Assembly (NCBI GenBank): GCA_025454875.1
Contig: JALONP010000007.1
Location: 28,733-92,732, forward strand
Length of the DNA: 64,000 nucleotides
Direction of reading: 5' to 3'
Source of the DNA: Bacteroidia bacterium
Lineage (GTDB): Bacteria > Bacteroidota > Bacteroidia > UKL13-3
Positions 1 to 27,658 of this stretch are shown here, piece by piece. Position numbers and translations under genes: made by a program. Each line of letters starts with the position of its first letter. Position 1 is the first letter of the stretch. The notes beneath the pieces were generated by a model, which was given only the letters and a program-made list of their open reading frames with translations, ran no database searches and had not been told where the DNA came from.

Positions 1-744
1 TACGAGGAGGCCGCTTGTCAAGGTTTGATAGCGGGCATTAACGCCCACTTAAATGTTAAAAACCAGGAACCTTTTGTATTAAGCAGATCTGAAGCGTATA
101 TAGGAGTGTTAATTGATGATTTGGTGAACAAAGGAACAGATGAGCCTTACCGTATGTTTACATCAAGGGCAGAATACCGTATTTTATTACGTCAAGATAA
201 TGCTGATATTCGGTTAACAGAAAAGGGCTATAAACTTGGGTTAGCTTCGCAATCAAGAATGGATGCAGTTGCCAAAAAAATTGAAGATACAAATACCCTT
301 GTAAGTGCGTTCAAAAAGACCTCTATCACACCCAAAGAGGTTAATCCCCTTTTAGAAAAAATGGGCACAGCATCTATCAGCCAAAACTATAAACTAGATG
401 CTATTTTAGCAAGACCGCAACTTACCATGAATGATATGATTGCTCAATTAAACACCGTTCAACAATTGGTTTCGGGATACGATGAAGATTGTTTGTTGCA
501 GTCAGAAATTGTTATGAAATATGAGGGCTACTTGGAGAAAGAAAAGCTGTTGGCAGACAAAATGAACCGCCTTGAAGATATTAAAATCAATCCTGAATTT
601 GATTATATGCCAATTCAGAGCATGAGTAAAGAAGCTCGGGAAAAGTTAAGCAAGCAACGGCCACAGACACTTGGGCAAGCATCTCGCATAAGTGGTATTT
701 CGCCTGCAGACATCAGTGTTTTATTGATTCACTTGGGAAGATAA
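1..744 (+). CDS. mnmG: tRNA uridine-5-carboxymethylaminomethyl modification enzyme MnmG, C-terminal part
   Basis: The reading frame is open from base 1, so only the C-terminal 247 residues are present; the gene begins outside the window. The visible part has the conserved segment RMFTSRAEYRILLRQDNAD and the C-terminal GidA-associated helical domain ending in a QRPQTLGQASRISGISPAD-like block. In the family this domain helps bind tRNA and the partner MnmE; together they install the cmnm5 or nm5 group on the wobble uridine of certain tRNAs, using FAD and a folate. The ATG at 25 is internal, not a start. The methyltransferase gene follows after 28 bases on the same strand. Confidence 0.96.
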   Translation, partial: YEEAACQGLIAGINAHLNVKNQEPFVLSRSEAYIGVLIDDLVNKGTDEPYRMFTSRAEYRILLRQDNADIRLTEKGYKLGLASQSRMDAVAKKIEDTNTLVSAFKKTSITPKEVNPLLEKMGTASISQNYKLDAILARPQLTMNDMIAQLNTVQQLVSGYDEDCLLQSEIVMKYEGYLEKEKLLADKMNRLEDIKINPEFDYMPIQSMSKEAREKLSKQRPQTLGQASRISGISPADISVLLIHLGR

Positions 745-772
745 TTTGTAATAATTGCTTTTATTTGCTTCT

Positions 773-1663
773 ATGGAAACCTTGATTTATTGTCCCATTT
801 GTAATAGCGAGCGTCTAACAAATGAGCTTTCTTGTAAAGATTTTGTTGCATCGGGAGAAACCTTTATGTTATCAAGGTGCAGTCAATGTTCTTTTTTATT
901 TACCAACCCGAGACCTGCATTAAGCAATATTGGTAAATACTATCAAAGCGATCGCTATGTTTCGCATGCGGCCAACAAGTCTGGGCTTTCATTTATGTAT
1001 CGTATATATGATTGGGTGCGAAACTACTCAATAGGGCAAAAAATTCGCCTTATCCGAAAATACAACCAATCAGGGAAATTGATGGATTTAGGGTGTGGCT
1101 TAGGTCACTTTCTAAATGGTGTGGTTCAATCAAATTATTTTGACGCCATTGGTGTTGATATTAGTGACGATGCGATACAGTACGTAAAAAAAACATTTGG
1201 CTATACGGTATTGCCGGAGTCTTCATTGAGCAACCAACCCTCTGCATCGCTTGATGTAATTACTCAGTGGCATGTATTAGAGCATGTTCATCTATTAAAC
1301 GACCGTATGGCAACTCTCAAAAGAATATTAAACCCGGAGGGTACCATGTTTATTGCAGTACCCAATAGCAATAGTTGGGACGCTAAATATTATCAATCTT
1401 TTTGGGACGGATATGATGTACCTCGACATTTATACCATTTTAACCAACAAAGCTTTACTCAATTAATAGAAAAACACGGCTTTAAAGTTGTTCAAGTATT
1501 GCCTATGGTTTTTGATGCTCCATACATCAGTATGCGTAGTGAAGTACATCAACATAACTCTATTCCTTTTATTAAGGGGGCTTTCTTCGGCAGTGTTTCA
1601 ACTATAAAGGCTCTTTTTTCAAAAGAATACTCCAGTTTATTATTTGTTGTTAAACATCAATAA
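773..1663 (+). CDS. class I SAM-dependent methyltransferase with N-terminal zinc-ribbon-like motif
   Basis: A protein of 296 residues. The N-terminus carries two CxxC pairs (CPIC near residue 6 and CSQC near residue 35) like the zinc-binding module of C-methyltransferase/Methyltransf_23-type proteins. The SAM-binding motif I is seen as LMDLGCGLGHFL (about residue 100), followed by an acidic GVDISDDA segment and a WHVLEHV motif. The substrate cannot be read from the sequence. I prefer the ATG at 773 over the TTG at 755, because the zinc motif follows directly. It sits between mnmG and an Ig-like lipoprotein on the same strand and nearly abuts the latter. Confidence 0.85.
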   Translation: METLIYCPICNSERLTNELSCKDFVASGETFMLSRCSQCSFLFTNPRPALSNIGKYYQSDRYVSHAANKSGLSFMYRIYDWVRNYSIGQKIRLIRKYNQSGKLMDLGCGLGHFLNGVVQSNYFDAIGVDISDDAIQYVKKTFGYTVLPESSLSNQPSASLDVITQWHVLEHVHLLNDRMATLKRILNPEGTMFIAVPNSNSWDAKYYQSFWDGYDVPRHLYHFNQQSFTQLIEKHGFKVVQVLPMVFDAPYISMRSEVHQHNSIPFIKGAFFGSVSTIKALFSKEYSSLLFVVKHQ

Positions 1664-1664
1664 A

Positions 1665-3266
1665 ATGGATTGGCAAAAATGGTTGCTTTTATTTGTTATC
1701 CTCTCTTTACACGTGGGTTGTGCGCAAATGGTTGCTCCTACAGGGGGTATAAAAGATACAACACCTCCAGAAGTACTATCTTCTAAACCAGCTTCAAGAA
1801 GCCATTCGTTTGAAGCAACGGAGATAGCTATTCGTTTTGATGAATATATCCAAGTTTCTAATATCGAAGAACAACTGATTATATCTCCTCCTTTTAATGA
1901 AAAACCAGAAGTTATCGTTGATGGTAAACAGTTAAAAATTCGTAACATTCCTTCGTTGCAGCCCAATACTACTTACACACTCAATTTTGGAAATAGTATT
2001 TCGGATGTTCATGAGAAAAATGTTTTATCTAATTTTTCGTATGTTTTTTCAACAGGATCGCAACTTGATAGTTTATCTATCAATGGGAATATTGTAAATG
2101 GTTTTACACTAAAACCTGAATCTTCTTATACGATTGGGCTTTATCTTGATTCTAGTTTTAATGATTCGACCGTATATTTGAAAAAACCCTTGTATTTAAC
2201 CAAGACTGATGCATCGGGTTTGTTTCAGTTAAACAATTTGCCCCAAACACGATTTAAACTATTTGCTTTTAAAGATGAAAACAAAAACTTGCTTTACAAT
2301 TCGAACGAGCCGTTTTGTATTTATGATGATTCTGTTCGCCTATCAGATTCATTAGCTTTCATTCGTTTGTCTTCAAGTGAAGGTAATAAGTACCCAATTA
2401 ATCATATTCTTGATACATTTAGTTTTGAAAAGGGCAAGTATACCTTTGTAGTATATAAACCTCAAGATTTAATTATTAAGCCCCAGTATTCTGATTCCTT
2501 TATTCAATGGACAAAGGCTGGATTATTAGGTGTAGATACCCTATTTTTTTTCCATAAGTTTGGTATAAGTGATACCTTTCAATTCTCCATTAAATCAACA
2601 AGTATAGATACTACAATACTAATTAAACCGAAACGCGCATACAAACCTGCAAAACCACAATTGGCTATTCCGAAAATTGTACAACTGAACCAGCCACTTA
2701 AAATTGAATCAAATTATCCTATTGCTAAAATCAACATGGATACATCGTTTATACAACTCACGGAAGATAGTCTATTAATTTATCCTGAAATAAAGATTGA
2801 TTCGATTCAAAAATCTGTAATTATCGATTATACATGGAAAGAAGGTAAAACGTATAGGTTAAAAATTGCAGATTCATGCATACAAGACATTCATAAACAA
2901 TACCACTCTAAGAACCAACTAACTTGGACTTCACCAAAAGTTCAAGACTATAGTATATTAACATTAAATATCAATATTGGTGAATCCAACTATCCCTATT
3001 TAGTTGAGTTATGGGATGATGCAGAAAAAGAAATTTACCAGACTTATTATATCCAATATTCACAACAAGTTACTTCAGAGTATATGCTTCCTGGAAAGTA
3101 TAAAATAAAGATAGTAGAAGATTTGAATAAAAATAAAAGATGGGATTCTGGCTCTATTTTAAAGCAAACAATACCTGAAAAAGTTGCTTACTATTCTGAT
3201 ATTATTTCACTTAAGGCAAATTGGGATTTAGAACAAACTATTGATATCCGCCAACTTGTGAATTAG
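1665..3266 (+). CDS. Ig-like domain lipoprotein
   Basis: A 533-residue exported protein. It has a hydrophobic signal with lipobox LHVGC (Cys about residue 19), then a TGGIKDTTPPEV segment. This begins an SbsA-type Ig-like domain (about residues 30-130, including the block PNTTYTLNFGNSISD). The rest is beta-rich, with a DENKNLLYNSNEP stretch and a later DLNKNKRWDSG stretch. Such Bacteroidota lipoproteins are probably cell-envelope proteins; a precise role is unknown. The start ATG at 1665 lies 1 base after the methyltransferase stop and places the lipobox properly. Co-transcription with the upstream gene is inferred from spacing. Confidence 0.82.
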   Translation: MDWQKWLLLFVILSLHVGCAQMVAPTGGIKDTTPPEVLSSKPASRSHSFEATEIAIRFDEYIQVSNIEEQLIISPPFNEKPEVIVDGKQLKIRNIPSLQPNTTYTLNFGNSISDVHEKNVLSNFSYVFSTGSQLDSLSINGNIVNGFTLKPESSYTIGLYLDSSFNDSTVYLKKPLYLTKTDASGLFQLNNLPQTRFKLFAFKDENKNLLYNSNEPFCIYDDSVRLSDSLAFIRLSSSEGNKYPINHILDTFSFEKGKYTFVVYKPQDLIIKPQYSDSFIQWTKAGLLGVDTLFFFHKFGISDTFQFSIKSTSIDTTILIKPKRAYKPAKPQLAIPKIVQLNQPLKIESNYPIAKINMDTSFIQLTEDSLLIYPEIKIDSIQKSVIIDYTWKEGKTYRLKIADSCIQDIHKQYHSKNQLTWTSPKVQDYSILTLNINIGESNYPYLVELWDDAEKEIYQTYYIQYSQQVTSEYMLPGKYKIKIVEDLNKNKRWDSGSILKQTIPEKVAYYSDIISLKANWDLEQTIDIRQLVN

Positions 3267-3663
3267 TGTGTACAAGGTGTACATATCTATCTTTTTAACC
3301 ACATTTCAAAGCATCTTATCAATCACATGTGGATGAAGCAATACTTATCCATCAGTTAAGCGCTTATAATACACTCTATCTATTCATAATTTTTATTCAG
3401 AATTATAAGTTAATATCAATACTAACAACGTGTATAATAGTACTTAATGTAATGAAAAACAATTAGTTAAAATGTTAATTTAATGTGTATCAAATCTGAA
3501 TAATGAAAACATCACTAAGTTTAGTAATTGATTATCCTCAAATTCACAGCACCAATAACAATAACAATTTATTTAAAAGGATTAAGAAGAATAGTATTCG
3601 TGGATTCCTCCTTTTATCAAATTAGTGTATGTTTGAACAGTAAACATTCCGATTTTTAAATCA
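3267..3663. other. 397-base intergenic stretch before pheS, no clear gene
   Basis: Very AT-rich. The only open frame with an ATG of note is 3503-3625 (40 codons, Asn-rich middle), which I do not consider supported. No hairpin followed by a T-run was found, and no tRNA-like fold. It presumably holds the end of the lipoprotein transcript and the pheS promoter, but I cannot point to convincing promoter boxes. Confidence 0.4.
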
Positions 3664-4677
3664 ATGATTGAGCAATTACATCAATTACATTCAACAATAG
3701 AATCGACCGAATTACATTCAGCTGAAGATGCGGAACAATTTAGGTTAACCTATCTATCTAGAAAAGGCTTGTTAAATGATCTTTTTGAACAATTTAAGCT
3801 TGTTTCAAATACAGAAAAAAAAGAAATAGGAAAACTGCTAAATACGGTTAAAAAACTTGCAGAGCAAAAGTTGGATGATGCACAAATAAAATTTATCCAA
3901 AAGACACATCAATCAAATAAAGATATTGATTTAAGTTTACCAAGTGAACTATCAGATTTAGGAAGTAGGCATCCATTGATGATAGTACAAAATAAAATTG
4001 TTTCTATCTTCACGAAGCTTGGTTTTTCGGTAGCAGAAGGACCAGAAATAGAGGATGATTGGCATAATTTTTCTGCGCTAAATTTTCCTGAAAATCACCC
4101 TGCAAGGGATATGCAGGATACTTTTTTTATAAACGATTCTTTATCACTCAGAACTCATTGTACAAGTGTACAGGTTCGTTTAATGGAAGAAAAGAGAATT
4201 CCATTAAGAGCAATTATGCCAGGTAGGGTATACCGAAATGAAGCAATATCTGCAAGAGCTCATTGTTTCTTTCACCAAATCGATGCAGTCTATATTGATC
4301 AAAATGTATCGTTTGCTGATTTAAAACAAACACTTTATTTATTCGTGCAAGAGATGTTTGGTTCCGATTTTAAAGTTCGTTTTAGGCCAAGTTTTTTTCC
4401 ATTTACAGAACCATCAGCCGAAATGGATATATCCTGTATGATTTGTAAAGGAAGTGGTTGTAATGTCTGTAAACATAGTGGATGGGTTGAAATATTAGGG
4501 TGTGGTATGGTGGATCCAAATGTGTTAACATTAAACGGAATTGATCCAGAAGTTTACAGCGGTTTTGCTTTTGGTATGGGAGTGGAGCGCATTACGATGT
4601 TGTTGTATGAAGTAAAAGATTTGCGCATGTTTAGCACAAATGATAGCAGGTTTTTAAAACAGTTTGAGAGCGCTTAA
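3664..4677 (+). CDS. pheS: phenylalanine--tRNA ligase alpha subunit
   Basis: A full-length protein of 337 residues, the usual length. It charges tRNA-Phe with phenylalanine as the alpha2beta2 enzyme in the cytoplasm. Seen: an N-terminal coiled-coil tRNA-binding arm (residues 1-90), the class II motif 2 region RNEAISARAHCFFHQIDAVY, and motif 3 GFAFGMGVERITMLLY near the C-terminus. A Cys-rich CMICKGSGCNVCKHSGW insert precedes the last active-site segment; the same type of CxxC pair is known in many bacterial PheS proteins and may bind metal. pheT is not adjacent here. The stop overlaps, tail to tail, the last 4 bases of a minus-strand lipoprotein gene. Confidence 0.97.
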   Translation: MIEQLHQLHSTIESTELHSAEDAEQFRLTYLSRKGLLNDLFEQFKLVSNTEKKEIGKLLNTVKKLAEQKLDDAQIKFIQKTHQSNKDIDLSLPSELSDLGSRHPLMIVQNKIVSIFTKLGFSVAEGPEIEDDWHNFSALNFPENHPARDMQDTFFINDSLSLRTHCTSVQVRLMEEKRIPLRAIMPGRVYRNEAISARAHCFFHQIDAVYIDQNVSFADLKQTLYLFVQEMFGSDFKVRFRPSFFPFTEPSAEMDISCMICKGSGCNVCKHSGWVEILGCGMVDPNVLTLNGIDPEVYSGFAFGMGVERITMLLYEVKDLRMFSTNDSRFLKQFESA

Positions 4678-4871
4678 TGCTCAATATTTGCTAGTGAATC
4701 ATCAGAAACAGCTTCTATTTGTGCTTTAATTGCTTTTTCCATTGAGTCCATTGCCGCATTGTCTTTTACAACTTGTTCATGAGCTTGCTTTTCGTCTTTT
4801 GAAAGTTGTTTTGGTTCATTAGAACAGGCAATAAGCGTGATTATTATAATAACATAAAACAGTGATTTCAT
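4674..4871 (-). CDS. small lipoprotein
   Basis: A 65-residue protein with a signal peptide and lipobox LIAC (Cys about residue 16), followed by a charged, helix-prone tail rich in Glu, Lys, Asp and Ala. It should be lipidated and anchored in the envelope. No family is recognised. It is convergent with pheS (4-base overlap) and lies 38 bases downstream of lptB on the same strand, so it may be the last gene of the purF-like/lptB transcript. Confidence 0.6.
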   Translation of the reverse strand: MKSLFYVIIIITLIACSNEPKQLSKDEKQAHEQVVKDNAAMDSMEKAIKAQIEAVSDDSLANIEH

Positions 4872-4909
4872 AGATACTTGTTTTTATAAATTATGAATAA
4901 TTGAATTGA

Positions 4910-5635
4910 TTAGCTCCGTAAAACAAAATTTTGTCCAAGGTATACTTTTCGAACCATTTCATCATCAGCTAATTCTTGGGCTGTTCCACCCTTTAGTAAT
5001 TTACCTTCAAAAAGAAGGTAGGCCCTGTCTACAATTGAAAGGGTTTCATGTACATTGTGGTCGGTGATTAAAATACCAATATTTCGGTGCTTTAATTGTG
5101 CTACAATTTGCTGAATATCCTCTACAGCAATCGGATCAACACCGGCAAAAGGCTCGTCTAATAAAACAAAACTGGGGTTAACAGCCAATGCACGTGCAAT
5201 TTCAGTTCTGCGTCTTTCACCACCAGATAAAACGCCACCTAAGTTTTTGCGCACACGGTTTAAACTAAACTCATCTAATAAACGCTCAAGTGTTTCGGCT
5301 TGGTCTTGCTTCGATAATTTAGTCATTTCGAGTACGGCTCTTATATTGTCTTCAACCGATAATGTTCTAAAAACAGAAGCCTCTTGAGGTAAATAACCAA
5401 TACCCTTTTGGGCACGTTTATACATTGGTAGTTGGGTGATATCTTCATTATCCAGTAGCACCTTACCCTGATCTGGTTTAACAATACCGACCGTCATGTA
5501 AAAAGTGGTAGTTTTTCCAGCACCATTTGGACCCAACAATCCAACACATTCTCCTTGATTCACGTAAATTGAAACGTTATTAACAACAGTTCGCTTTTTG
5601 TATTTTTTAACAAGGTTTTCTGTGCGTAGTATCAT
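4910..5635 (-). CDS. lptB: LPS export ABC transporter ATP-binding protein LptB
   Basis: A 241-residue ATPase that powers extraction of lipopolysaccharide from the inner membrane together with LptF, LptG and LptC. Seen: Walker [10 protein letters not shown] (about residue 35), the Q-loop [10 protein letters not shown], the ABC signature LSGGERRR, Walker [14 protein letters not shown] and the H-loop ITDHN. The IAVEDIQ and RAYLLFEG segments are typical of LptB rather than amino-acid importers. Length is normal. It starts 11 bases after the amidophosphoribosyltransferase stop, suggesting one transcript, although the two functions are not obviously linked. Confidence 0.93.
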
Positions 5636-5646
5636 CTCAAGTAAAA

Positions 5647-7542
5647 TTAATAAGCTCTAGCAGAGCTTCCTTCCATGAAGTTAATAAACGCTTTATTAAC
5701 CACCTTATTTCCTCCAGGGGTTGGATAATTTCCAGTAAAATACCAATCTCCTTTATGGTCTGGGCATGCCTCATGCAAATTATTTACGGATTGGTATAAT
5801 ACGCTTACCTCAGCATTTAAGTCTGAAGGTTTAATTATTTGCGCAATTTTCTCACTTATTTGGTCATCAGTGAAGGGCACGTACAGCTTTTTCACATGAT
5901 TTGTTACTTCTTCTTTAGGAAGGTTTTCCTGTGCTTTACATAATGCATATACTTCATGCAGTAAGTTTTCTTGTTTGTTGTCTTTTAGCAGAGCGAGCAT
6001 TGCTTGAAAAGCAACAAAGTCTTTTAATCGACTCATATCAATGCCATAACAATCAGGATAACGAATTTGTGGTGCGGAAGAAACAACAACAATGCGTTTT
6101 GGGTGAAGCCTGTCCAATATTCGCAAAATACTCGATCGAAGCGTGGTTCCTCTAACAATTGAATCATCAATTACTACAAGGGTATCTTGATCGTTACGCA
6201 CCAACCCATATGTAACATCGTATACGTGTGCCACCATATCTTCACGGTGTTCATCATCGGTAATAAAGGTTCGAAGTTTGGCGTCTTTAACGGCCATTTT
6301 CTCCCTTCTGGGCTTTAATGAAATAAGTTTTTTAAGAGCGTCTTTATCTGGATTGGGCCCAAGCTTTAAAATTTCGTTGGCTTTGTATTCGCTTAAATAA
6401 TCCAATACGCCATCAATCATTCCATAAAAGGCTGTAGCTGCAGTATTTGGTATGTATGAAAAAACGGTATTTTCAATGTCATAATTAATAGTTTCAAGCA
6501 CCTTAGGGCTTAATAAATAGCCTAGTTTTTTACGCTCTTTATAAATATCGCGGTCGTTTCCTCTTGAAAAGTAGATACGCTCAAAGGTGCATGCTTTTTT
6601 CTCGAGAGGTTGGATAATATTAACCTCCTTAACAGCTCCATCTTTTTTAACAATTAAAGCGTTTCCAGCTCCAAGCTCTTTAATTGACCCGATAGGAACA
6701 TTAAATCCAGTTTGAATTGCTGGACGTTCGCTTGTTGCCACCACAATTTCATCATCTTGGTAATAAAAACAAGGCCTGATACCAGCAGGGTCTCTTAATA
6801 TGAAAGCGTCTCCATGACCAATCATTCCGGCCATTACATAACCACCATCTACTTCACGCATAGCTCTTTTAAGGATAGAGTCAACGCTCATATTTTTGGC
6901 AATTAGTGAAGTAATTTCTTTATTGGTATAGCCTTCTCGCTTGAAATGCGCAAATTGAATTTGGTTTTCTTCATCCAGAAAATGACCAATCTTTTCAAGC
7001 ATCGTAACGGTATCGGCTCGCTCGACAGGGTGTTGTCCTAAATCAACCAAAATGTCAAAAAGTTCATCAACATTGGTCATGTTAAAATTGCCGGCCAACA
7101 TTAAGTTTCGGGTCATCCAATTGTTTTCTCTGATAAATGGGTGGCATAAATCAGCAGCACTCCCTCCGTAGGTTCCATAACGTAAGTGACCAAGCATTAC
7201 CTCTCCAACAAAAGGGGCCGCGGCTTTCATAAAATCAGGATTCTTCAGATTTTCTTTTGAGGCAACCTTGTTTATTTTAGCGCTTATTTTACCGAATATT
7301 TGCGAGATGGCGCCACTACCACTCTCCCGTTTTCTAAATATAAAAGGAGAACCAGGTTCTGGATCTAACTTAATTACACCAACCCCGGCTCCATCTTGGC
7401 CACGATTGTGTTGTTTTTCCATTAATAGGTAGAGCTTTTTTAAGCCATACAAACTCGAACCATATTTTTCCTGGTAATATTCAAGAGGCTTCAGCAGTCG
7501 AATAAAGGCAATGCCACATTCGTGTTTTATAGGATCACTCAT
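5647..7542 (-). CDS. amidophosphoribosyltransferase family protein, long Bacteroidota form
   Basis: A 631-residue class II glutamine amidotransferase fused to a phosphoribosyltransferase. The predicted nucleophile Cys9 follows a short propeptide-like N-terminus (KHECGIAF). [10 protein letters not shown] block and [10 protein letters not shown] segment mark the glutaminase half. The PRPP-binding loop is [15 protein letters not shown] (about residue 455). PurF performs the first committed step of purine synthesis, PRPP plus glutamine to phosphoribosylamine. This protein is about 130-160 residues longer than classical PurF; long homologues are common in Bacteroidota and may coexist with a standard PurF, so I do not assign the symbol. 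It is transcribed leftward with lptB and divergently from the ECF sigma gene. Confidence 0.85.
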
Positions 7543-19608: not shown

Positions 19609-20262
19609 TTACATCATCATAAACCACTTGTTTTTTACAGCAAGCATCACAGCTTGGGTTTTACTGCTTACATGAAGTTTTTGGTATATTTTGGTAATAT
19701 GTGTACGAACGGTGTGTGGGCTGATGAATAGCTTGTCGGCAACACCTTTGTAATCTAATCCTTCTACTAGTCCTTTAAGGATATCCATTTCCCTGGCAGA
19801 AAGAACGGTTTCTTCTTTTTGCTTTGCTTCTACTTTGGCGTTCATTAATAATTGCAAAGCTTTGCGCGCAATACGTGGACTCATGGGCGAACCACCAAAT
19901 TCAACAATTTGCCAAAGTGCGTCTACAATTTTATCTACATTTTCATCTTTAAGTAAATACCCTATTGCACCAGCCTTAATGGCTTCAAAAATTTTATCAT
20001 CATCATCAAAAACGGTAAGCATTAAAAACTTGGTTTCAGGATAGAGGCTTGCGGCAATATTTACAGCCTCTATTCCATTCATAATAGGCATGTCAATATC
20101 CATCAGCACAACATCAACCAATTGTTTTTCTGCTTTTATTTTATTTAAAAAGTCTTCACCATTTGCAGCTAAAAAGGCCACATCGATATCTTTTAAAAAA
20201 CTCAATTTTTCTTGTAACGAAACCCTGTTGGGTTGTTTATCGTCAACAATTGCAATGCGCAT
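19609..20262 (-). CDS. response regulator, NarL/LuxR family
   Basis: A 217-residue two-component regulator. The receiver domain (residues 1-120) has the acidic pair in AIVDD, the phospho-acceptor Asp in VVLMDIDMP and the Lys in GYLLKDE. The C-terminal LuxR-type helix-turn-helix (about residues 150-212) has LSAREMDILKGLVEG and SPHTVRTHITKIYQKL. The start at 20262 (MRIAIVDD) is chosen over the ATG at 20283, because a -7 box (20284-20291) ends directly before 20283, so 20283 should not be transcribed. It lies 65 bases downstream of the histidine-kinase gene on the same strand and is the obvious partner of that kinase. Confidence 0.9.
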   Translation of the reverse strand: MRIAIVDDKQPNRVSLQEKLSFLKDIDVAFLAANGEDFLNKIKAEKQLVDVVLMDIDMPIMNGIEAVNIAASLYPETKFLMLTVFDDDDKIFEAIKAGAIGYLLKDENVDKIVDALWQIVEFGGSPMSPRIARKALQLLMNAKVEAKQKEETVLSAREMDILKGLVEGLDYKGVADKLFISPHTVRTHITKIYQKLHVSSKTQAVMLAVKNKWFMMM

Positions 20263-20283
20263 AATCTGTTTAATTGTTTCCAT

Positions 20284-20332
20284 CAAAAGTGCTGTTATGT
20301 TGGATGGCTATCAATACTGCAAATGCGCTATT
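20284..20332 (-). promoter_or_regulatory. palindrome/promoter site D, upstream of response regulator
   Basis: Read on the minus strand: a 20-bp imperfect palindrome AATAGCGCATTTGCAGTATT (20332-20313), then exactly 21 bases, then the -7 box CACTTTTG (20291-20284). The same arrangement occurs at three other promoters in this region (sites A, B and C). The TTG of GTATTG can act as the -33 element. It overlaps the last bases of the kinase gene, giving the regulator its own, probably autoregulated, promoter. Confidence 0.65.
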
Positions 20333-23315
20333 TTAGTACAATAGTTAATACTGTCCCTTTTCCAGGTTCAGAAGCTACAATAAGCTCTGCATTTGTTTCT
20401 TTTGCTCGAGCTTCCATGTTTATTAAGCCATAATGGCCTTTTTGTTTGGCTTGTTCCCAATCAAATCCAATCCCATCATCTTTAATAGAAAAAGCAAGGA
20501 GTGCTTTTTCATCGGATTGAAAGTGGATATGAACATTTTTACTTTGGGCGTGTTTCAAACAATTGTTAAACGCTTCTTGGCATACACGAAACACATTAAG
20601 CGCAACTGCTGGAGACAATACCTTATTGGGTAATATCTGTTCCGTAAAATGTACGTGAATTGTTCGATCAAACTCCAACATTTTAAGTGCAAATTGCTTA
20701 AAGCGATCAGCAAAATCATCAACCTTTAAGCTGGTATTACTAATGGCCCAAATGGTTTGTCGTAGTGTTAAAATTGCATTTCGTCCGGCTTCGCTCATGG
20801 CTTGTAGGCGTTGTTGTTCATCTTGTTCCGTTAATCTATCGGGGTGTTGCAACATCCACTCTACATTGGTAATCAAATAGCTTAATTGGGCACCCACATT
20901 ATCATGCAAATCGCGCGAAATGCGTAAACGCTCCTGCTCCAGCTTTTGTTGCAATTCTAATTCGCGCTGTAACTTGCGCTGTTGGCGCAAATTGTATGCA
21001 TAAAACGCGCCACCTACTGCTACAAAACCAAGCAAGCCCATTAGCCAATAAAACCAAGTACGTTTCCAAAATGGGGGGATAATTGAAATGAAAATATTGC
21101 GAGGTTGTTTATTCCAAAAGCCATCGGCATTGGCAGCCATCACTTCAAATACATAATTACCCGGAGGCAAATTGGCGTAACGAGCAAAATGCTTTGTTCC
21201 GCTTTGAATCCAGTTATTATCATAACCAGCTAGTCGGTATTGATAGATATTGTTTTCGGGTTGGCTGAATTCCAATGCCGAAAAATCGAACGACAGCGTG
21301 TTTTCTAAATAAGACAATGTGAGCGATGTGATTTCATTGTAAGCAGTATCGCTTTTGTAGGGCATGTCGCCCAATAGTATTTCGTTGATGGAAATTTGTG
21401 GGGCATTTTTATTTTCAATTACATGGCTTGGGTCAATTACATTAATTCCGTTTACACCCCCAAAGTACAATAAGCCCTTTTCATCTTTATAATACGCTCC
21501 TGTGTTAAATTCGTTGCTTTGTAACCCATCTTTAACGCCATAGTGTTTAAAGGTTTGGGTTAATGGATTATAAACAGATAAGCCTTTGTTATGGCTCATC
21601 CAAATCTTTCCGTTGTTATCTTCTAAAATGCCATAAATAAAATCATCGGGTAAATCTTGTGGTGCTTCATAGCGTTTTATTACGGAACCATTGGGTTTCA
21701 AATGATACAAACCACTGTTACCACCAAGCCATAATGATTGCTTATTGTGTGTAAGACAAATGGATTTTACTGTTAGCGAATAAGGAAGTTGTTTAATGCG
21801 CTTTGTAATGGGATTGAACTGAAGAAGATGCTGCGTTGTTCCTACCCACCAAACACTATCATTTGCAATTTGAAAGGTAGTAAGGTAGTGTTTGCTCAAC
21901 TCAAATTGATGAATGGTTTTTAATTTAAATTCTTGTTGAATTTCAAATAAATAAGCATCAGCCGACAAATACACTTTTCCTTTATTGATTCTCAATACAG
22001 GGTATCCAATACCGCGTTGCTTTTGGGCCTTATAAATTTTTTCGGTGTAAACAACTTTTTGGGTGCGCAAGTTCATCACCATTAAATTCTCGTTTTGCAC
22101 GAAATATAAATGGTTATTAAAAGTAATAAGCCCAAGGATATTGGTGGATATTTTATTTGGTAATTTAAAATGAGGTGTTTGTCCATTGTTGAGATACCAA
22201 ACCATTCCCCCTTCATATAAGCCTGAAAAAACAGTGCCAACAGTATCGGTGCTAATGGCTTTAACCAAGCTGCTTCCTCCTGCTATTACGGGCAAATGTT
22301 TAAACTTATTATTTTGTGGTGACAAACATTTTGCTCCATCACCATTGGTGCATATCCACAGGTTGTTCGAATGGTCTATGTATAAATTTTGAACATAATA
22401 AAATCCAACTTTTTGCTTTTTATCGAATGATACAATATGCTCTTCGAACCGATTGGTGACGGTATCAAATACAAAAAGGCCGGTATTATTTCCCATCCAA
22501 ATTTTTCCTTGCCACCAAACCATTGAGGTAAAGTTACTTTTTTCAGTAGGGAATAAAGAGCCTTGTAAAGGCTTATATTTTATAGTATTCGAATTCACAT
22601 CGTAATAGGTCATTTGCTTATCTGCATAAATACAAATAGTACTATCATTGTAAAGCATGATGCTATTAGTGTGTTTACTTCGGCCATAAACCAAATTCAC
22701 TTCTTTGGTGTCAATATTTAACCTAAACCAACTGCTGGTGCTATCATTAAAATACCCAACAATGTATTTGCCTACAATAAAACCCTTGCGGAAAGAAGAT
22801 ACTTGAAACGTGCTTTTAGAAATATTGATGGTATGAAGCAATTGCAAGGTATTGTTAGAAAAGCATTGCAATTGTTGGGTATTGGTAATGCACCACATAT
22901 TGCCATCATGGTCCTGGCCTATGAGTGTGGCATAGCTATCGCCATTATTAAAGCTGTCGGGAAAAATGTGTACGTTGTAAAAATTATTTTTTGCACGGTT
23001 GTAAACACTTATCCCTTTATTGTGCGAAATCCATAACTGATGATTTTTAGTTTCGAGGAAGTGAAATGCAGAGTTGCCTAAAATAGATGCCGTATCAAAT
23101 TGGCTAAATTTATAATGGTGCATTTTATATCCATCAAATCGGTCAATACCATCGGCTGTGCCAAACCACATAAAGCCTTTATAATCTTGAAAAACATCCC
23201 AAACGGTATTTTGGGCAAGGCCATTATCAACTGTGTATGAGGTGTAATTACGCTGCAATTGCGCAAAGCAAGCAACAGAAAAGGCAAGCAGCAGATAAGT
23301 AAATACAAACTTCAT
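20328..23315 (-). CDS. two-component sensor histidine kinase with periplasmic propeller
   Basis: A 995-residue kinase with a signal peptide (FSVACFAQ). A long periplasmic seven-bladed-type propeller follows, with repeats such as WDVFQDYKGFMWFGTADGIDRF and ILEDNNGKIWMSHNKGLSVYN (about 25-640). Next come a Y_Y_Y domain (about 670-735) and one membrane helix (WFYWLMGLLGFVAVGGAF). The cytoplasmic part has a HisKA_3 dimerisation domain (RISRDLHDNVGAQLSYL, the phosphorylated His) and a HATPase domain (NCLKHAQSKNVHIHF). The ligand is unknown; propeller sensors of Bacteroidota often sense glycans or envelope cues. The start at 23315 gives a clean signal peptide, unlike the upstream codon at 23354. 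It is followed by its NarL-type regulator. Confidence 0.92.
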   Translation of the reverse strand: MKFVFTYLLLAFSVACFAQLQRNYTSYTVDNGLAQNTVWDVFQDYKGFMWFGTADGIDRFDGYKMHHYKFSQFDTASILGNSAFHFLETKNHQLWISHNKGISVYNRAKNNFYNVHIFPDSFNNGDSYATLIGQDHDGNMWCITNTQQLQCFSNNTLQLLHTINISKSTFQVSSFRKGFIVGKYIVGYFNDSTSSWFRLNIDTKEVNLVYGRSKHTNSIMLYNDSTICIYADKQMTYYDVNSNTIKYKPLQGSLFPTEKSNFTSMVWWQGKIWMGNNTGLFVFDTVTNRFEEHIVSFDKKQKVGFYYVQNLYIDHSNNLWICTNGDGAKCLSPQNNKFKHLPVIAGGSSLVKAISTDTVGTVFSGLYEGGMVWYLNNGQTPHFKLPNKISTNILGLITFNNHLYFVQNENLMVMNLRTQKVVYTEKIYKAQKQRGIGYPVLRINKGKVYLSADAYLFEIQQEFKLKTIHQFELSKHYLTTFQIANDSVWWVGTTQHLLQFNPITKRIKQLPYSLTVKSICLTHNKQSLWLGGNSGLYHLKPNGSVIKRYEAPQDLPDDFIYGILEDNNGKIWMSHNKGLSVYNPLTQTFKHYGVKDGLQSNEFNTGAYYKDEKGLLYFGGVNGINVIDPSHVIENKNAPQISINEILLGDMPYKSDTAYNEITSLTLSYLENTLSFDFSALEFSQPENNIYQYRLAGYDNNWIQSGTKHFARYANLPPGNYVFEVMAANADGFWNKQPRNIFISIIPPFWKRTWFYWLMGLLGFVAVGGAFYAYNLRQQRKLQRELELQQKLEQERLRISRDLHDNVGAQLSYLITNVEWMLQHPDRLTEQDEQQRLQAMSEAGRNAILTLRQTIWAISNTSLKVDDFADRFKQFALKMLEFDRTIHVHFTEQILPNKVLSPAVALNVFRVCQEAFNNCLKHAQSKNVHIHFQSDEKALLAFSIKDDGIGFDWEQAKQKGHYGLINMEARAKETNAELIVASEPGKGTVLTIVLK

Positions 23316-23328
23316 TGGCAGGGTTAAA

Positions 23329-23377
23329 AATACAGCATATGACGTATTTCCCAAATTTTGATTTTAAAAGTTCTTTG
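23329..23377 (+). promoter_or_regulatory. palindrome/promoter site A
   Basis: AATACAGCATATGACGTATT (23329-23348; 8 of 10 positions symmetric), then 21 bases, then the -7-like box GTTCTTTG (23370-23377), 28 bases before the ATG at 23406. It also lies 13 bases upstream of the divergent histidine-kinase start, where a bound regulator could act as an operator for the kinase gene. Confidence 0.65.
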
Positions 23378-23405
23378 CCGTATCACAATCTATAAAACAA
23401 ACATT

Positions 23406-24431
23406 ATGAAAAAACAACTACTTACAATTACGAGTATGCTATTATTTACAGTAGGAGCATTTGCTCAATTTAACGCAGCACAAATTTGGAACTTAAATCG
23501 CTATGTAGATCCAATGCCGCACAACGCCATTAACATAGCGGGAATCACAATGGGCGGTATCATCTATAATCAAGCAGGAGTTCCAACCGCAGGATTAACA
23601 ACCAACCCTGCACCTTTTCCAAAATTTCGTATTACTAGCACTGTAACAGGTAATAAATTAGTATGCATTTCGGCTGAACAAGAAGATAACGACCCATGGG
23701 AAGAAAAAGAACGTGCCACTTTTGAAAGTGATGGAACCAATGATACTACCGTTACAGTTGAAGAAAGCAATAATGGATCGGCATTTACAAATACAGCAAA
23801 AGTAGTTATTGAGCGCGGCTCAAATCCCAATCAATATACCATACTGCAATATAGATTTAGAAACAACGATACTTGGGTTTTAGATAGTAAATTGTTTCAT
23901 TATTTAACCAACGGACGAATTGATTCCCTTGTAAGCTATAGATACACTGGGACAGACTCAACTAAGAATGCTGTTAGAACGTTTTACTACTCGAATGGAT
24001 TAGACTCTGTATTAGATAATTCATTAAATGTGATTTCAGGTCAATTTGTAGTAAATGGGAGATTTTTGGTATTGCAAAAAGAAAACGGAAAGACGAAACA
24101 ATGGGCGCTTGAAAGTCGCCAAACTGAAACTGAACCATTTCAACGCGGTGGCACTATTTTATATAGCAACGGCCCTGCATCTTCTTTAAGTGAGGTTACA
24201 AAAGGAAATCAGTTTTCAATTTACCCCAACCCTTCCACATCAACTATCAAATTGAATTTTACCGAAAACGCATCGGTTCAAAACATCGTTATTTTAAACA
24301 GTAATGGTCAAAAATTAATTGAACAAAAAGAAGCAACCGGTATTGATGTAAGCGAACTTTCTGCAGGTTTATATTTTGTACAAGTAACAACAAACAAAGG
24401 AGTCTCTACTCAAAAATTCATCAAAAACTAA
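23406..24431 (+). CDS. secreted protein with T9SS type A sorting domain
   Basis: A 341-residue protein starting MKKQLLTITSMLLFTVGAFAQ, a clear signal peptide, which is why the ATG at 23406 is used instead of 23358. The body (about residues 20-260) is beta-rich and of no recognised family; it contains YRFRNNDTWVLDSKLFHY and a run of Asp/Asn turns. The C-terminal sorting domain starts QFSIYPNPSTSTIKLNF and ends GLYFVQVTTNKGVSTQKFIKN. It has site A upstream and a terminator downstream, so it is a single-gene unit, probably controlled by the adjacent kinase/regulator pair. Confidence 0.82.
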   Translation: MKKQLLTITSMLLFTVGAFAQFNAAQIWNLNRYVDPMPHNAINIAGITMGGIIYNQAGVPTAGLTTNPAPFPKFRITSTVTGNKLVCISAEQEDNDPWEEKERATFESDGTNDTTVTVEESNNGSAFTNTAKVVIERGSNPNQYTILQYRFRNNDTWVLDSKLFHYLTNGRIDSLVSYRYTGTDSTKNAVRTFYYSNGLDSVLDNSLNVISGQFVVNGRFLVLQKENGKTKQWALESRQTETEPFQRGGTILYSNGPASSLSEVTKGNQFSIYPNPSTSTIKLNFTENASVQNIVILNSNGQKLIEQKEATGIDVSELSAGLYFVQVTTNKGVSTQKFIKN

Positions 24432-24493
24432 TCGAGCCTGTATTACTGCTTGTATGAAAATGCAGTAGTAACGTAGCGTTAGATTTGTGTAAG

Positions 24494-24523
24494 GCCGTAT
24501 CATTAAAATGATGCGGCTTTTTT
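24494..24523 (+). terminator. intrinsic terminator after the T9SS gene
   Basis: Stem 24494-24504 with 24507-24517 (one G-T wobble), with a T-run from 24518. It ends the monocistronic unit starting at 23406 and separates it from site B. Confidence 0.8.
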
Positions 24524-24645
24524 ATGTAATACTTTTATGGTGCCACTTGCACAGATATTCAATCCATTCTGTTCGTCAGCGGCATTATGCCATCTAAGAT
24601 TTACACCCAACACAGACGCCTACTTTGTAAATCAAGATGGTATAA

Positions 24646-24694
24646 AATACAGCATTTGTCGTATTGATAGGCAGAGTAAATACAAACATTTTTG
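24646..24694 (+). promoter_or_regulatory. palindrome/promoter site B
   Basis: AATACAGCATTTGTCGTATT (24646-24665), then 21 bases, then the -7 box CATTTTTG (24687-24694), 28 bases before the ATG at 24723. It has the same layout as sites A, C and D; the TTG overlapping the right half-site is spaced 20 bases from the -7 box. Confidence 0.68.
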
Positions 24695-24722
24695 TACCGT
24701 ACAAACTAACAAACACAATCAA

Positions 24723-25175
24723 ATGAAAAAACTAATCATCCCAATACTTTTGCTCGCAATGGTTGCTTGCAAAAAAGAAGAAGATAAAAAGGAAGAGGTA
24801 AAACCAGATCCGAATGCACCAGTTGCGTTTACTAAAGAGGCAGCGGTTGGAACATGGCAAATCAACAAATTTGAGGAGTATGCTATTCCAAGCGACACAA
24901 TTAAGTTTACCTTTAATGTTCCAGCAGGGCAAGGTACTTTTACATTAGGTAGTGATAATTCTTATTCTACTGTTTTGCCTCTTGGATCAGATAATGGAAC
25001 ATACATTATTGGAAAACTCAATGGAAAGGATTTATTAATTTTATTAGAAACTGGAAAACAGCCAGACACTAATGAAGTTGTGTTATTCACTAAGTCTTCA
25101 TTTGTAATCAGTAATAAAGATGCTGAAACAAGAAAAGGAAGTAATGATTACTCAAAAGGATATTTAAGCAGATAG
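24723..25175 (+). CDS. small lipoprotein
   Basis: A 150-residue protein with signal peptide and lipobox MVAC (Cys about residue 14), then a Lys/Glu-rich linker and a compact beta-domain starting AAVGTWQINKFEEY, reminiscent of lipocalin-like Bacteroidota lipoproteins. The ATG at 24723 is chosen; the longer frame from 24537 has no signal peptide and would run across the promoter. It carries site B upstream and a terminator just downstream, so it is a single-gene unit. Function unknown. Confidence 0.75.
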   Translation: MKKLIIPILLLAMVACKKEEDKKEEVKPDPNAPVAFTKEAAVGTWQINKFEEYAIPSDTIKFTFNVPAGQGTFTLGSDNSYSTVLPLGSDNGTYIIGKLNGKDLLILLETGKQPDTNEVVLFTKSSFVISNKDAETRKGSNDYSKGYLSR

Positions 25176-25194
25176 AGTTTTGCCAATTCAAACG

Positions 25195-25220
25195 AAAAGC
25201 CACCATTGTGTGGCTTTTTT
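25195..25220 (+). terminator. intrinsic terminator after the 24723 lipoprotein gene
   Basis: Perfect 9-bp stem 25195-25203 with 25210-25218, extending into a T-run to 25220. It isolates the lipoprotein unit from site C, which begins 12 bases later. Confidence 0.8.
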
Positions 25221-25231
25221 ATGCTTACCAA

Positions 25232-25280
25232 AATACAGCATTTGCTGTATTGCCAGCCAAGCATTGCAAATCCAATTTTG
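25232..25280 (+). promoter_or_regulatory. palindrome/promoter site C
   Basis: AATACAGCATTTGCTGTATT (25232-25251; 9 of 10 positions symmetric, the best copy), then 21 bases, then the -7 box CAATTTTG (25273-25280), 27 bases before the ATG at 25308. It probably drives the two-gene unit 25308-27658. Confidence 0.7.
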
Positions 25281-25307: not shown

Positions 25308-26960
25308 ATGAAAAAAATTATCTTAGCATCCTTACTGGTCTCACTAAATATTGGATTGCAAGCTCAGGTAGAACTCACGTCTAAGAGTTTTGACCTCGAA
25401 TCACAGAACAAGCACAAAAACTGGTTTATAAAAGGCGCTGGTATGGACTCAATAACCGGAAAGGCCTATATCAACTTTGTTCAAGCACAATGTGTTTCGA
25501 GCAGTACCTCAGACGCATCCTATGTGTACACCACATATTATGGCTTTAGATATAAGGTAGATAAACTCGTTTTTGATGATAAATTTAACTATATCGAAAC
25601 AATAAATAAAAGCTATGAGTCAACGAAAGAAGCGTTACTCAACAACGAATTAATTTTTGGAGCAAAGTACAATACGTATTATGATCCATTCTTCCCTTAC
25701 CAAATAGATAATTCCTACATGTTCACCACTACTGTTAGTTATGGATTTACGGCTGGTAAAGATGTTGTGGCTTCATACCTTGGATTAAAGGTGCAAGGTT
25801 GCACTGAATATCCAAAACGTTACGAAGAGAATGGAGCAGCAAACAGACAATCAAAGGGAGAAAAGTGGTATCCTATTTACAGTAACCCTATCCCCAATGG
25901 TGGAAACATACTTTACAGTACTGTTGGTGTGCTAAAAGAAGAAAAACAACATTACATATTCAGAAAATTTGATAAGGATTTGAACTTGGTTAAAGAGCAA
26001 ACATTTACGTTTGATCATCAGTGCTTAATAACCGCCAAATCCATAGAAAAGGCACCTGGCAAATTTGACTATGTTTTTATCGCTATCCCAATTGATTACA
26101 AGAAATCGAAAATAAAAACCACCGAAGCAAACAAGTATGAGTATTTTTATATTGATGGTGATAGCTATGAAATAAAGGAGCATGTAAAATTTAATGCATC
26201 AAATACGCGTTGGGTTATTGATCAAGTAATACACAAGGACAATGCAACTTATTTAATAGGGGGTTGTGGTAATAACAACAAAGAATACTCTGATGTTAAA
26301 GGAGCAGTGGAAGAGGATTTCAATAATCTGCAGGTAGCCAAGTTCGAGAATAATAAATTGGTATACATAAATGGCATCTTAAACAAAGATTTTCAAGGTT
26401 TCCTAAAAACCAATGAGGGTTTTGAGAGTAACTCGAAAGTAAGTTTAAAAATGGTAAGTACAAGCCTAACCTTGGTCAATAACAAACTTGTTTATCAGGG
26501 AAGACAATTTAAAGGAGGACCTTCAGGATACGCAGTGATGGGACAATCTTTGGGTGGTGTAACTTATGTGGGTTTACAGGCATTCGTTATAAACGAGAAA
26601 GGTGCTCTAGATGCGATGCTATCAAAGAAGGGTGAAGATTTAGGATCGTCTGTTTCATTCTCAAAAGACGGAAAAAAAATGTTCTGGTTTGCATATGATA
26701 TTGGTAAATATAATAAGTTCAAAGACGGTACGATATACGCAAACAAATCAAAGTTTTTAATTACCAGTCTATCTGTTATCACCTATAATTTTGACTCAAA
26801 AGAAATCTCTACTTATCAGAATTTAGAAAACGATGATTGGGCTATAAGTTATACCAACCCTTTCTTATATGAAGATGAAAATAAACTCATAATGCTTGGC
26901 CACAAAATTACTAAAAAGGCAAAAGAGAGCGAGGTTGTTTTTATTACCATTAAGAAGTAG
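25308..26960 (+). CDS. secreted protein of unknown function
   Basis: A 550-residue protein with a signal peptide (LNIGLQAQ). The mature part is rich in Asp, Lys, Tyr and beta-strand patterns, with segments that resemble propeller blades (SVSFSKDGKKMFWFAYD, NNKLVYQGRQFKGG). No lipobox and no T9SS sorting domain were found, so it probably stays in the periplasm or is attached to an outer-membrane partner. The gene at 26969 starts 8 bases after its stop, so the two are co-transcribed from site C. Confidence 0.65.
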   Translation: MKKIILASLLVSLNIGLQAQVELTSKSFDLESQNKHKNWFIKGAGMDSITGKAYINFVQAQCVSSSTSDASYVYTTYYGFRYKVDKLVFDDKFNYIETINKSYESTKEALLNNELIFGAKYNTYYDPFFPYQIDNSYMFTTTVSYGFTAGKDVVASYLGLKVQGCTEYPKRYEENGAANRQSKGEKWYPIYSNPIPNGGNILYSTVGVLKEEKQHYIFRKFDKDLNLVKEQTFTFDHQCLITAKSIEKAPGKFDYVFIAIPIDYKKSKIKTTEANKYEYFYIDGDSYEIKEHVKFNASNTRWVIDQVIHKDNATYLIGGCGNNNKEYSDVKGAVEEDFNNLQVAKFENNKLVYINGILNKDFQGFLKTNEGFESNSKVSLKMVSTSLTLVNNKLVYQGRQFKGGPSGYAVMGQSLGGVTYVGLQAFVINEKGALDAMLSKKGEDLGSSVSFSKDGKKMFWFAYDIGKYNKFKDGTIYANKSKFLITSLSVITYNFDSKEISTYQNLENDDWAISYTNPFLYEDENKLIMLGHKITKKAKESEVVFITIKK

Positions 26961-26968
26961 GATACCTG

Positions 26969-27658
26969 ATGAAATTCGCCAAACACTTAGCTCTTGTTGC
27001 CTGTTTCTGCTGTACTTACATAGTTTCAATTGCCCAAGATGATCAGTTTCATTTGGCATTCTATCAATTTTCAAAAGGGAATGCTGATTTGGCAACTAAC
27101 AGTAACTATACATTTACCGTAAAAAACCCAATGCTTAAGTTTGATTGGGTAACATCAGATTTTGGATGGGTAACAGGTGACTTTTCCTTAGTGCCGAACA
27201 TTGATTGGGGAGGTACGGTAAATCCACCAGATGACATTCATGGTGCGCTTGCGGATATTGACTTCGGATTTTACGTGAATCCAGGCAAACCTATTAAAAT
27301 ACTTGGATCGGAAACACGAATAGGATTGGGTCTGATTGGAGGTTTTGAAACGGCAGGTTTCAGAAGTGCGGGTATTACTTTTCCGGGAGCAAGCTTTTCG
27401 ATATTGACTCATCTGAACGACAGGTTCATTGTGAATACACGTTATCACTACAGTTTTTTCTATAACAATAATGATTCGGGTAATTATGGAAAGAATACTA
27501 AACTACAGTTTAATATAACCTGCAAGTTGCTGAGGTGGTTGGGAATAACACTAACACCTAATATTGAAACATATAAGCTAGCCGAGAGACCACCAGGTGC
27601 AGCTGCAAACGGAGCCAAATATCACTCGTTAGATTTAGGTATCTCGTTTTTTTGGTAA
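26969..27658 (+). CDS. putative outer-membrane beta-barrel protein
   Basis: A 229-residue protein with a signal peptide ending near VSIAQ. The mature part shows alternating amphipathic strands (FDWVTSDFGWVTGDFSLV, RLGLIGGF-like strands, RFIVNTRYHYSFFY), and the chain ends in an aromatic residue (LGISFFW), the usual signal for barrel assembly. It should be an outer-membrane protein; no substrate is evident. It is coupled to the upstream secreted-protein gene and closes before a terminator. Confidence 0.7.
   Translation: MKFAKHLALVACFCCTYIVSIAQDDQFHLAFYQFSKGNADLATNSNYTFTVKNPMLKFDWVTSDFGWVTGDFSLVPNIDWGGTVNPPDDIHGALADIDFGFYVNPGKPIKILGSETRIGLGLIGGFETAGFRSAGITFPGASFSILTHLNDRFIVNTRYHYSFFYNNNDSGNYGKNTKLQFNITCKLLRWLGITLTPNIETYKLAERPPGAAANGAKYHSLDLGISFFW

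Follow-up and report, generated by a model that had tools for sequence, protein, structure and literature searches.

We analysed a 64,000-nucleotide stretch of a Bacteroidia bacterium genome (GTDB lineage UKL13-3; assembly GCA_025454875.1, contig JALONP010000007.1, positions 28,733 to 92,732), hereafter the window. It carries a sensor kinase gene, a response-regulator gene and, in front of the regulator gene and of neighbouring genes for predicted exported proteins, four copies of a 20-bp dyad (AATACAGCAnnTGCTGTATT type) at a fixed distance from a promoter-like box. This four-site arrangement is real, non-random and conserved.

The response regulator (19609–20262, minus strand; 217 amino acids from ATG 20262) comprises a receiver domain followed by a GerE/LuxR helix-turn-helix DNA-binding domain (PF00072, 75.0 bits; PF00196, 66.9 bits; both above cut-off), the architecture of NarL/FixJ-type regulators, with the receiver in the place of the autoinducer-binding domain of quorum-sensing LuxR. 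Against the NCBIfam NarL equivalog NF007935 it scores 105.3 bits, below the cut-off of 250, and by this score it is not NarL itself. Its receiver motifs, VDDK at the N-terminus, Asp55 in LMDID and LLKD, correspond to the acidic pocket, phospho-aspartate and lysine of an active receiver; the recognition-helix residues are R186, T187 and T190. The co-directional kinase gene (20328–23315, minus strand) encodes a propeller-type HisKA_3 sensor kinase of 995 amino acids with Reg_prop, Y_Y_Y, HisKA_3 and HATPase_c domains (Pfam), His804 within RDLHDNVGAQ of HisKA_3, and a signal peptide predicted by eye.

Genes for predicted exported proteins follow on the plus strand. The first (23406–24431) encodes a 341-aa protein with a type IX secretion system (T9SS) C-terminal sorting domain (PF18962/TIGR04183), which has homologues. 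Next come a 150-aa predicted lipoprotein (24723–25175; MKKLIIPILLLAMVAC..., by eye), a 550-aa protein with 63 homologues (25308–26960) and a 229-aa protein (26969–27658) whose gene starts 8 bp after the 550-aa gene and is probably on the same transcript. Neither the lipoprotein nor the 550-aa and 229-aa proteins matched any family in Pfam or NCBIfam.

Four sites with a single spacing

Read directly from the letters, the dyad at all four predicted promoters is followed by a 21-bp spacer and a TTTG-ending box, the spacing being exactly 21 bp in four of four. Site A (minus strand; dyad AATAGCGCATTTGCAGTATT, 20313–20332; −7-like box CACTTTTG, 20284–20291) lies upstream of the regulator gene, with 21 nt from box to ATG 20262, and has counterparts in orthologous loci. 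It marks the junction of the kinase gene and the regulator gene, which run in one direction, and the kinase stop codon (TAG, 20328–20330) falls inside the dyad. Site B (plus strand; dyad AATACAGCATATGACGTATT, 23329–23348; box GTTCTTTG, 23370–23377) lies between two divergent genes: the kinase gene, whose ATG is 13 bp away, and the T9SS-protein gene, whose ATG 23406 follows 28 nt after the box. Sites C (plus strand; dyad AATACAGCATTTGTCGTATT, 24646–24665; box CATTTTTG, 24687–24694) and D (plus strand; dyad AATACAGCATTTGCTGTATT, 25232–25251; box CAATTTTG, 25273–25280) have their boxes 28 nt before ATG 24723 and 27 nt before ATG 25308, respectively. A second in-frame ATG directly follows the site A box (20262–20283) and would give a 224-aa regulator from a nearly leaderless message; the regulator start codon is thus ambiguous between this ATG and ATG 20262 (217 aa).

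This reading bears out several claims of an initial annotation of the window: the 21-base interval at four sites, a start codon 27–28 bases after the box at three of them (B, C and D), and their position before a response-regulator gene and three secreted-protein units, which are the same genes found here, with export predicted. The annotation erred in assigning the box GTTCTTTG to site A, since this deviating box belongs to site B, and in placing site A between the divergent kinase gene and its neighbour, a position that site B holds.

With at most one mismatch allowed in the two 5-bp dyad arms, the window has 4 instances of dyad, 21-bp spacer, TTTG and nearby ATG in combination, whereas 200 dinucleotide shuffles gave a mean of 0.02 and a maximum of 1. 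The annotation had proposed scanning the whole genome and had named many unrelated copies as the outcome that would speak against a local regulon. Across the genome (2,981,991 bases, 37 contigs) the consensus AATACAGCATWTGNNGTATT gave 37 strand hits at up to 3 mismatches, and every hit with 0–1 mismatch lay inside the window. The pattern AATACAGCANNTGCTGTATT followed by 25 bases and TTTG, again with up to 3 mismatches, gave 6 strand hits, all at sites A–D, and none in the reversed control. For the full dyad with spacing and box, the many unrelated copies were therefore looked for and not found. The bare arms fared otherwise: alone, at up to 2 mismatches, they occur 84 times in the window versus 53 expected, and combined with spacing and TTTG they give, at up to 3 mismatches, 1222 places genome-wide versus 747 in the reversed control, 8 places outside the four sites having one mismatch. 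Such loose patterns are common and unspecific; the inner dyad letters are needed for specificity.

Dyads with 2 mismatches were found at three places outside the window (C21:2005, C13:181104 and C6:154042), and a TTTG box at 21 bp was absent at all three. The dyad at C21:2005, which is followed by a paralogous propeller kinase and a GerE regulator, was considered as a further operator and rejected, because an open reading frame runs across it and the box is missing; those on C13 and C6 were rejected for want of a box. No AATACAGC-type dyad was found within 1.5 kb on either side of the other 7 GerE matches of the genome.

Conservation at orthologous loci

Orthologous loci were sought in a sample of 64 genomes of the family, cited here by their sample labels. 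A kinase match at E ≤ 1e-60 was found in 19 of the 64, the window's own genome included, and the best seven others share 40–82% identity. At the loci of these seven, dyads stand in the intergenic region that separates the kinase gene from its divergent neighbour, upstream of the regulator gene or, where synteny extends, before other exported-protein genes. A dyad precedes the regulator gene at spacing 21 in G037, G038, G039 and G056; none was found before the regulator gene of G057. In the same-genus genome G001 no match was found to the kinase (E ≤ 1e-60) or to the regulator (E ≤ 1e-25). Of 8 kinase genes compared, 7 have a dyad whose kinase-facing end lies 12–13 bp upstream of the start codon, and 7 have [TC]TTG 3 bp outside the dyad. 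In G056 (contig C349, L112) the whole propeller kinase gene is tandemly duplicated (461–3463 and 3547–6534), each copy with a dyad 13 bp before its start codon.

A motif-blind scan of 10 regulator loci, the window included, asked only for symmetry of at least 8/10, TTTG and a start codon; it returned 16 dyads at spacing 21, whereas none of the other spacings between 10 and 40 had more than 2. We assembled 26 distinct sites, selected for TA..TA, TTTG and spacing 21 and with identical 49-mers counted once; they come from 14 loci, of which two lie outside the family and some are close kin. Their consensus is TACAGCA-2-TGCTGTA, of which TA..TA was a selection criterion, and it has the 7-2-7 layout of NarL-type sites. 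The dyad carries 30 bits and the spacer 0.30 bit per base, so it is the length of the spacer, not its letters, that is kept. The box is mostly [GC]AnnTTTG; its first base is T in 2 of 26 sites versus 28 of 64 comparison boxes that precede genes at 11 loci, with some dyad promoters still among them.

Dyad and regulator largely occur together. The pattern AATACAGCANNTGCTGTATT plus 25 bases plus TTTG, at up to 3 mismatches, matches in 24 of the 64 genomes and in 2 with the reversed control. Sites with 0–1 mismatch occur in 7 of the 64: six have them at the kinase/regulator locus (G000, G026, G037, G038, G039 and G056), and the seventh genome is G059. Ten genomes have a regulator of at least 64% identity (the G056 copy is cut by a contig end), and 8 of the ten have a match at the locus. 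In G059 (contig C19, around 12100; L191) an exact dyad stands at 21 bp before a homologue of the 550-aa gene, in a genome with no close kinase or regulator match; as that homologue contains an in-frame stop, the site may be a decaying remnant of the regulon.

Spacing and half-site letters across the class

Around non-orthologous regulators of the home family, 10 dyads were found at spacing 21 and 7 at spacing 20, with at most 3 at any other spacing from 10 to 40. We then drew on a sample of 395 genomes of the class. At E ≤ 1e-45 it yielded 81 regulator matches; 74 belong to genomes outside the home family, and 60 of these 74 loci (683,704 bases) were analysed for dyads before a start codon. 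At symmetry of at least 7/10, 30 dyads stood at spacing 21, against a mean of 4.6 and a maximum of 10 for the other 42 spacings from 8 to 50; at symmetry of at least 8/10 the count was 17 versus at most 3. The nonsense box GTTT gave 5 dyads at spacing 21. After one locus without a recovered regulator was dropped, 27 spacing-21 dyads lay within 4 kb of the regulator (492 kb) versus 2 further off (182 kb), where other spacings average 1.05. Ten of the 30 stand before a regulator gene. The spacing rule is not universal, since only 24 of the 60 loci show such a dyad.

Four loci of one subfamily (L180–L183, in G008, G007, G009 and G026) each have a single dyad of the AATACGCA..TGCGTATT type that separates the regulator gene from a divergently transcribed gene for an exported protein (310 aa at three loci; truncated by a contig end in L181). 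It lies 21 bp from the box of the exported-protein gene and 20 bp from the TAGCTTTG box of the regulator gene, and we read it as a shared bidirectional operator.

The letters of the dyad vary with one residue of the recognition helix. Thr187 of the window's regulator occupies the position of NarL 189 in a register taken from sequence and from solved NarL-type relatives, with reference to the DNA contacts of NarL. Where the regulator has Asn here, adjoining dyads are of the TAGTACA-2-TGTACTA type, again at 21 bp. The scan covered 91 loci; after removal of 3 whose regulator was not recovered and 2 that lack a recognisable helix, the remaining 86 formed 66 clusters at 75% identity, 34 of which have a dyad at 21 bp. 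Among these, all 9 Asn clusters have G as third half-site base, as against none of 25 Thr or Lys clusters; the base is C in 7 of 8 Thr clusters (T in one), and among the 17 Lys clusters it is C in 13 and A in 4. All 12 clusters with Ser, Phe, Arg or Ala lack a dyad at 21 bp, as do 19 of 36 Lys clusters and 1 of 10 Asn clusters.

The same difference is seen on orthologous targets. A TAGTACA dyad at 21 bp precedes the gene orthologous to that of the 341-aa protein in both G006 and G011, and in G011 a second exported-protein gene and the regulator gene are also under TAGTACA-type dyads. Judged from these sequences, the dyad letters differ in step with regulator type. Within the family, the 6 zero-mismatch TAGTRYA-type sites fall in 3 of the 64 genomes (G006, G011 and G058), each at an Asn-type regulator; at up to 3 mismatches, AATACAGCA-type sites are absent from all three, just as TAGTRYA-type sites are absent, at up to 1 mismatch, from the 10 genomes that have a close regulator of the Thr type. 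Exact sites of each dyad type are thus almost restricted to genomes that possess the matching regulator. The G011 locus (contig C249, L176) holds homologues of the 341-aa and 550-aa proteins and, by eye, of the lipoprotein around its Asn-type regulator; no kinase gene was found among the reading frames of at least 100 aa on this 9-kb contig.

Somewhat on the favourable side of even, we judge that a large branch of the NarL-type regulators of the class uses one rigid promoter address, with letters that follow a readable recognition-helix code. The address would be, with the same slight leaning, a 7-2-7 dyad centred near −42.5 and separated from the −7 box by exactly 21 bp. The code, held with no greater assurance, would pair Thr with TACAGCA or TACTGCA, Asn with TAGTACA, and Lys..Glu with TACGACA or TAAGGCA.

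Probable activation of a local regulon and competing explanations

We consider it likely, from the arrangement and conservation of the sites, that the neighbouring NarL/LuxR-type regulator binds the dyads as a dimer and activates its own gene together with the predicted exported-protein genes. The neighbouring propeller kinase is predicted to phosphorylate the regulator, and the dimer, bound near −42.5, would act next to polymerase in the manner of class II activation; at site A this would amount to positive autoregulation of the regulator gene. With the box placed at −11 to −4, the dyad spans about −52 to −33 and is centred at −42.5. Class II operators are centred near −41.5 to −44.5, at a fixed distance to the −7/−10 element; the spacing peak at 21, which emerges without motif input, would fit such an operator if the start sites lie where they are predicted. 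Class II activation and positive autoregulation are favoured by the 7-2-7 layout, this centre and the positions from which NarL activates, and the weak boxes fit dependence on an activator. Site B would possibly serve two genes, as class II operator for the exported-protein gene and as brake on the kinase gene. Such negative feedback is plausible, since the dyad would cover the start region of the kinase gene and ends 13 bp before its start codon.

The initial annotation had proposed a local two-component regulon, which the conservation, the near-confinement and the change of half-site with recognition helix all support. It had also left the choice between repressor and class II activator; geometry and the weak −7 box now narrow this towards activation of the forward genes.

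A number of observations weigh against this account. The dyad precedes the regulator gene at 20 bp, not 21, in G026 and G010, and [TC]TTG on the kinase side is absent at 1 of 8 kinase genes; the case for repression of the kinase gene is one of position. G031 and G057, which have regulators of at least 64% identity, show only degenerate dyads at the locus and pattern matches elsewhere. Conversely, G055 and G059 have the dyad at 21 bp before a homologue of the 550-aa gene and lack a close regulator (the closest match in G055 has 42% identity; G059 has none at E ≤ 1e-25), and 12 further genomes without such a regulator have matches at 3 mismatches (at 2 in G036 and G061). TAGTRYA matches with 1 mismatch occur in six further genomes versus 3 in the reversed control, and G048, the fourth Asn-type genome, has no TAGTRYA-type site. 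Each dyad was assigned to the best regulator at its locus, and some dyads, the one at L186 for example, look like chance occurrences. Finally, Asn regulators form nearly one clade, with 2 changes needed on the tree, and the Asn type may even have a single origin, so the match in all 9 clusters does not amount to nine independent events and is best read as a clade-level difference.

Among other explanations, the regulator, once bound to the dyads, might act as a repressor of the forward genes by keeping polymerase off the −33 element, which the dyad overlaps, until a signal removes the regulator. The last bases of the dyad (TT, then G at sites A, C and D) do overlap the expected −33 TTG, and NarL represses at frdA from a 7-2-7 site near the start (PMC4549865). 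We nevertheless regard repression as unlikely: polymerase contact needs a fixed spacing and blocking does not, the spacing-21 peak was obtained without motif input, T in first position of the box is as rare as noted above, site B has no TTG after its dyad, and the dyad stands where NarL-activated promoters have theirs. It seems very unlikely that another DNA-binding protein of the genome binds the dyads, with the regulator gene merely one more target. The dyads kept in G055 and G059 and the 7 further GerE matches above cut-off would suit such a binder; against it stand the close pairing of dyad type and regulator type across the genomes, with each dyad type nearly confined to its own regulator type, the change of half-site with the recognition helix, the NarL-like 7-2-7 layout and the lack of a comparable dyad within 1.5 kb of those 7 GerE matches.

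We give almost no weight to the view that these palindromes function in RNA, as hairpins or terminators, or belong to a dispersed repeat, multiplied by copying of a promoter cassette instead of being kept by binding, even though most of the dyad is common to A, B, C and D. The spacer is poorly conserved between sites, which makes a copied cassette unlikely; the dyad lies upstream of the likely start and hence outside the forward transcript; its 2-nt centre would make a poor hairpin loop; and the genome holds no further copies of dyad plus box at up to 3 mismatches.

The proposed activation by the neighbouring regulator has partial parallels in known systems. Bacteroides hybrid two-component systems join a propeller sensor and an AraC regulator in one protein. 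The present kinase resembles them in its Reg_prop and Y_Y_Y sensor with histidine kinase, but it does not belong to them: kinase and regulator are separate genes, the regulator is of the GerE type, and no sugar-utilisation locus was seen beside the kinase and regulator genes. The lux box of Vibrio fischeri LuxR is likewise a 20-bp dyad centred at about −42.5 with class II action; LuxR senses an autoinducer, whereas a phosphoreceiver domain replaces that function here.

A close parallel to the layout is Escherichia coli NarL at napF, yeaR and ogt1052, also a receiver plus GerE regulator with 7-2-7 heptamers at a similar promoter position. NarL activates from 7-2-7 sites at −49 to −40 (napF) and −44.5 (ogt) (PMC4549865, PMC9314961), a single such site suffices at ogt (PMC9314961), and an engineered NarL site, TACCCCTAAAGGGGTA, consists of TAC...GTA inverted heptamers with a 2-bp gap (PMC4549865). 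The present system differs in its half-site letters, its propeller sensor, its local regulon of predicted exported proteins and the −7 and −33 boxes of its phylum, given for Bacteroides as TAnnTTTG and TTTG (PMC7366714). Similarly, a report on Pseudomonas CrbS/CrbR describes an inverted repeat at −52 to −36 that is needed for activation and conserved across system-bearing species (PMC5715377); this LuxR-type regulator, with its ACTU motif, resembles ours in having an imperfect inverted repeat just upstream of the promoter, and has features of its own in a proteobacterial RpoD promoter, an acetate regulon and a symporter-type kinase.

A literature search covering titles and the starts of abstracts, with few subscription journals or preprints, returned no paper dealing with this operator or with a fixed address of 21 bp in the phylum, and no rule for the position of a NarL-type regulator on its −7/−33 promoters. 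So far as this search shows, operator and geometry are new for the phylum, while the kind of device, a 7-2-7 operator with class II action, is known.

Apart from these subjects, contig C21 of G000 (1–250 and 646–1557; L034) holds repeats of ~46 bp (GTTGTGATTTGCTTTCAGATTTTAAGTAACGATCTTTGAATACACT) with spacers, beside cas2- and cas1-like genes, which by eye form a CRISPR array.

A fixed address with a private dyad, which emerged without motif input around divergent regulators of other families too, would offer a simple assignment of targets for numerous regulators not yet characterised. The contrast between Thr and Asn regulators, each with its matching dyads on orthologous targets, provides a ready-made test of NarL-type DNA specificity. 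If the proposed address and code hold, sequence alone could reveal, across the group, which targets each regulator is wired to, and regulons would rewire by switching letters at an unchanged address.

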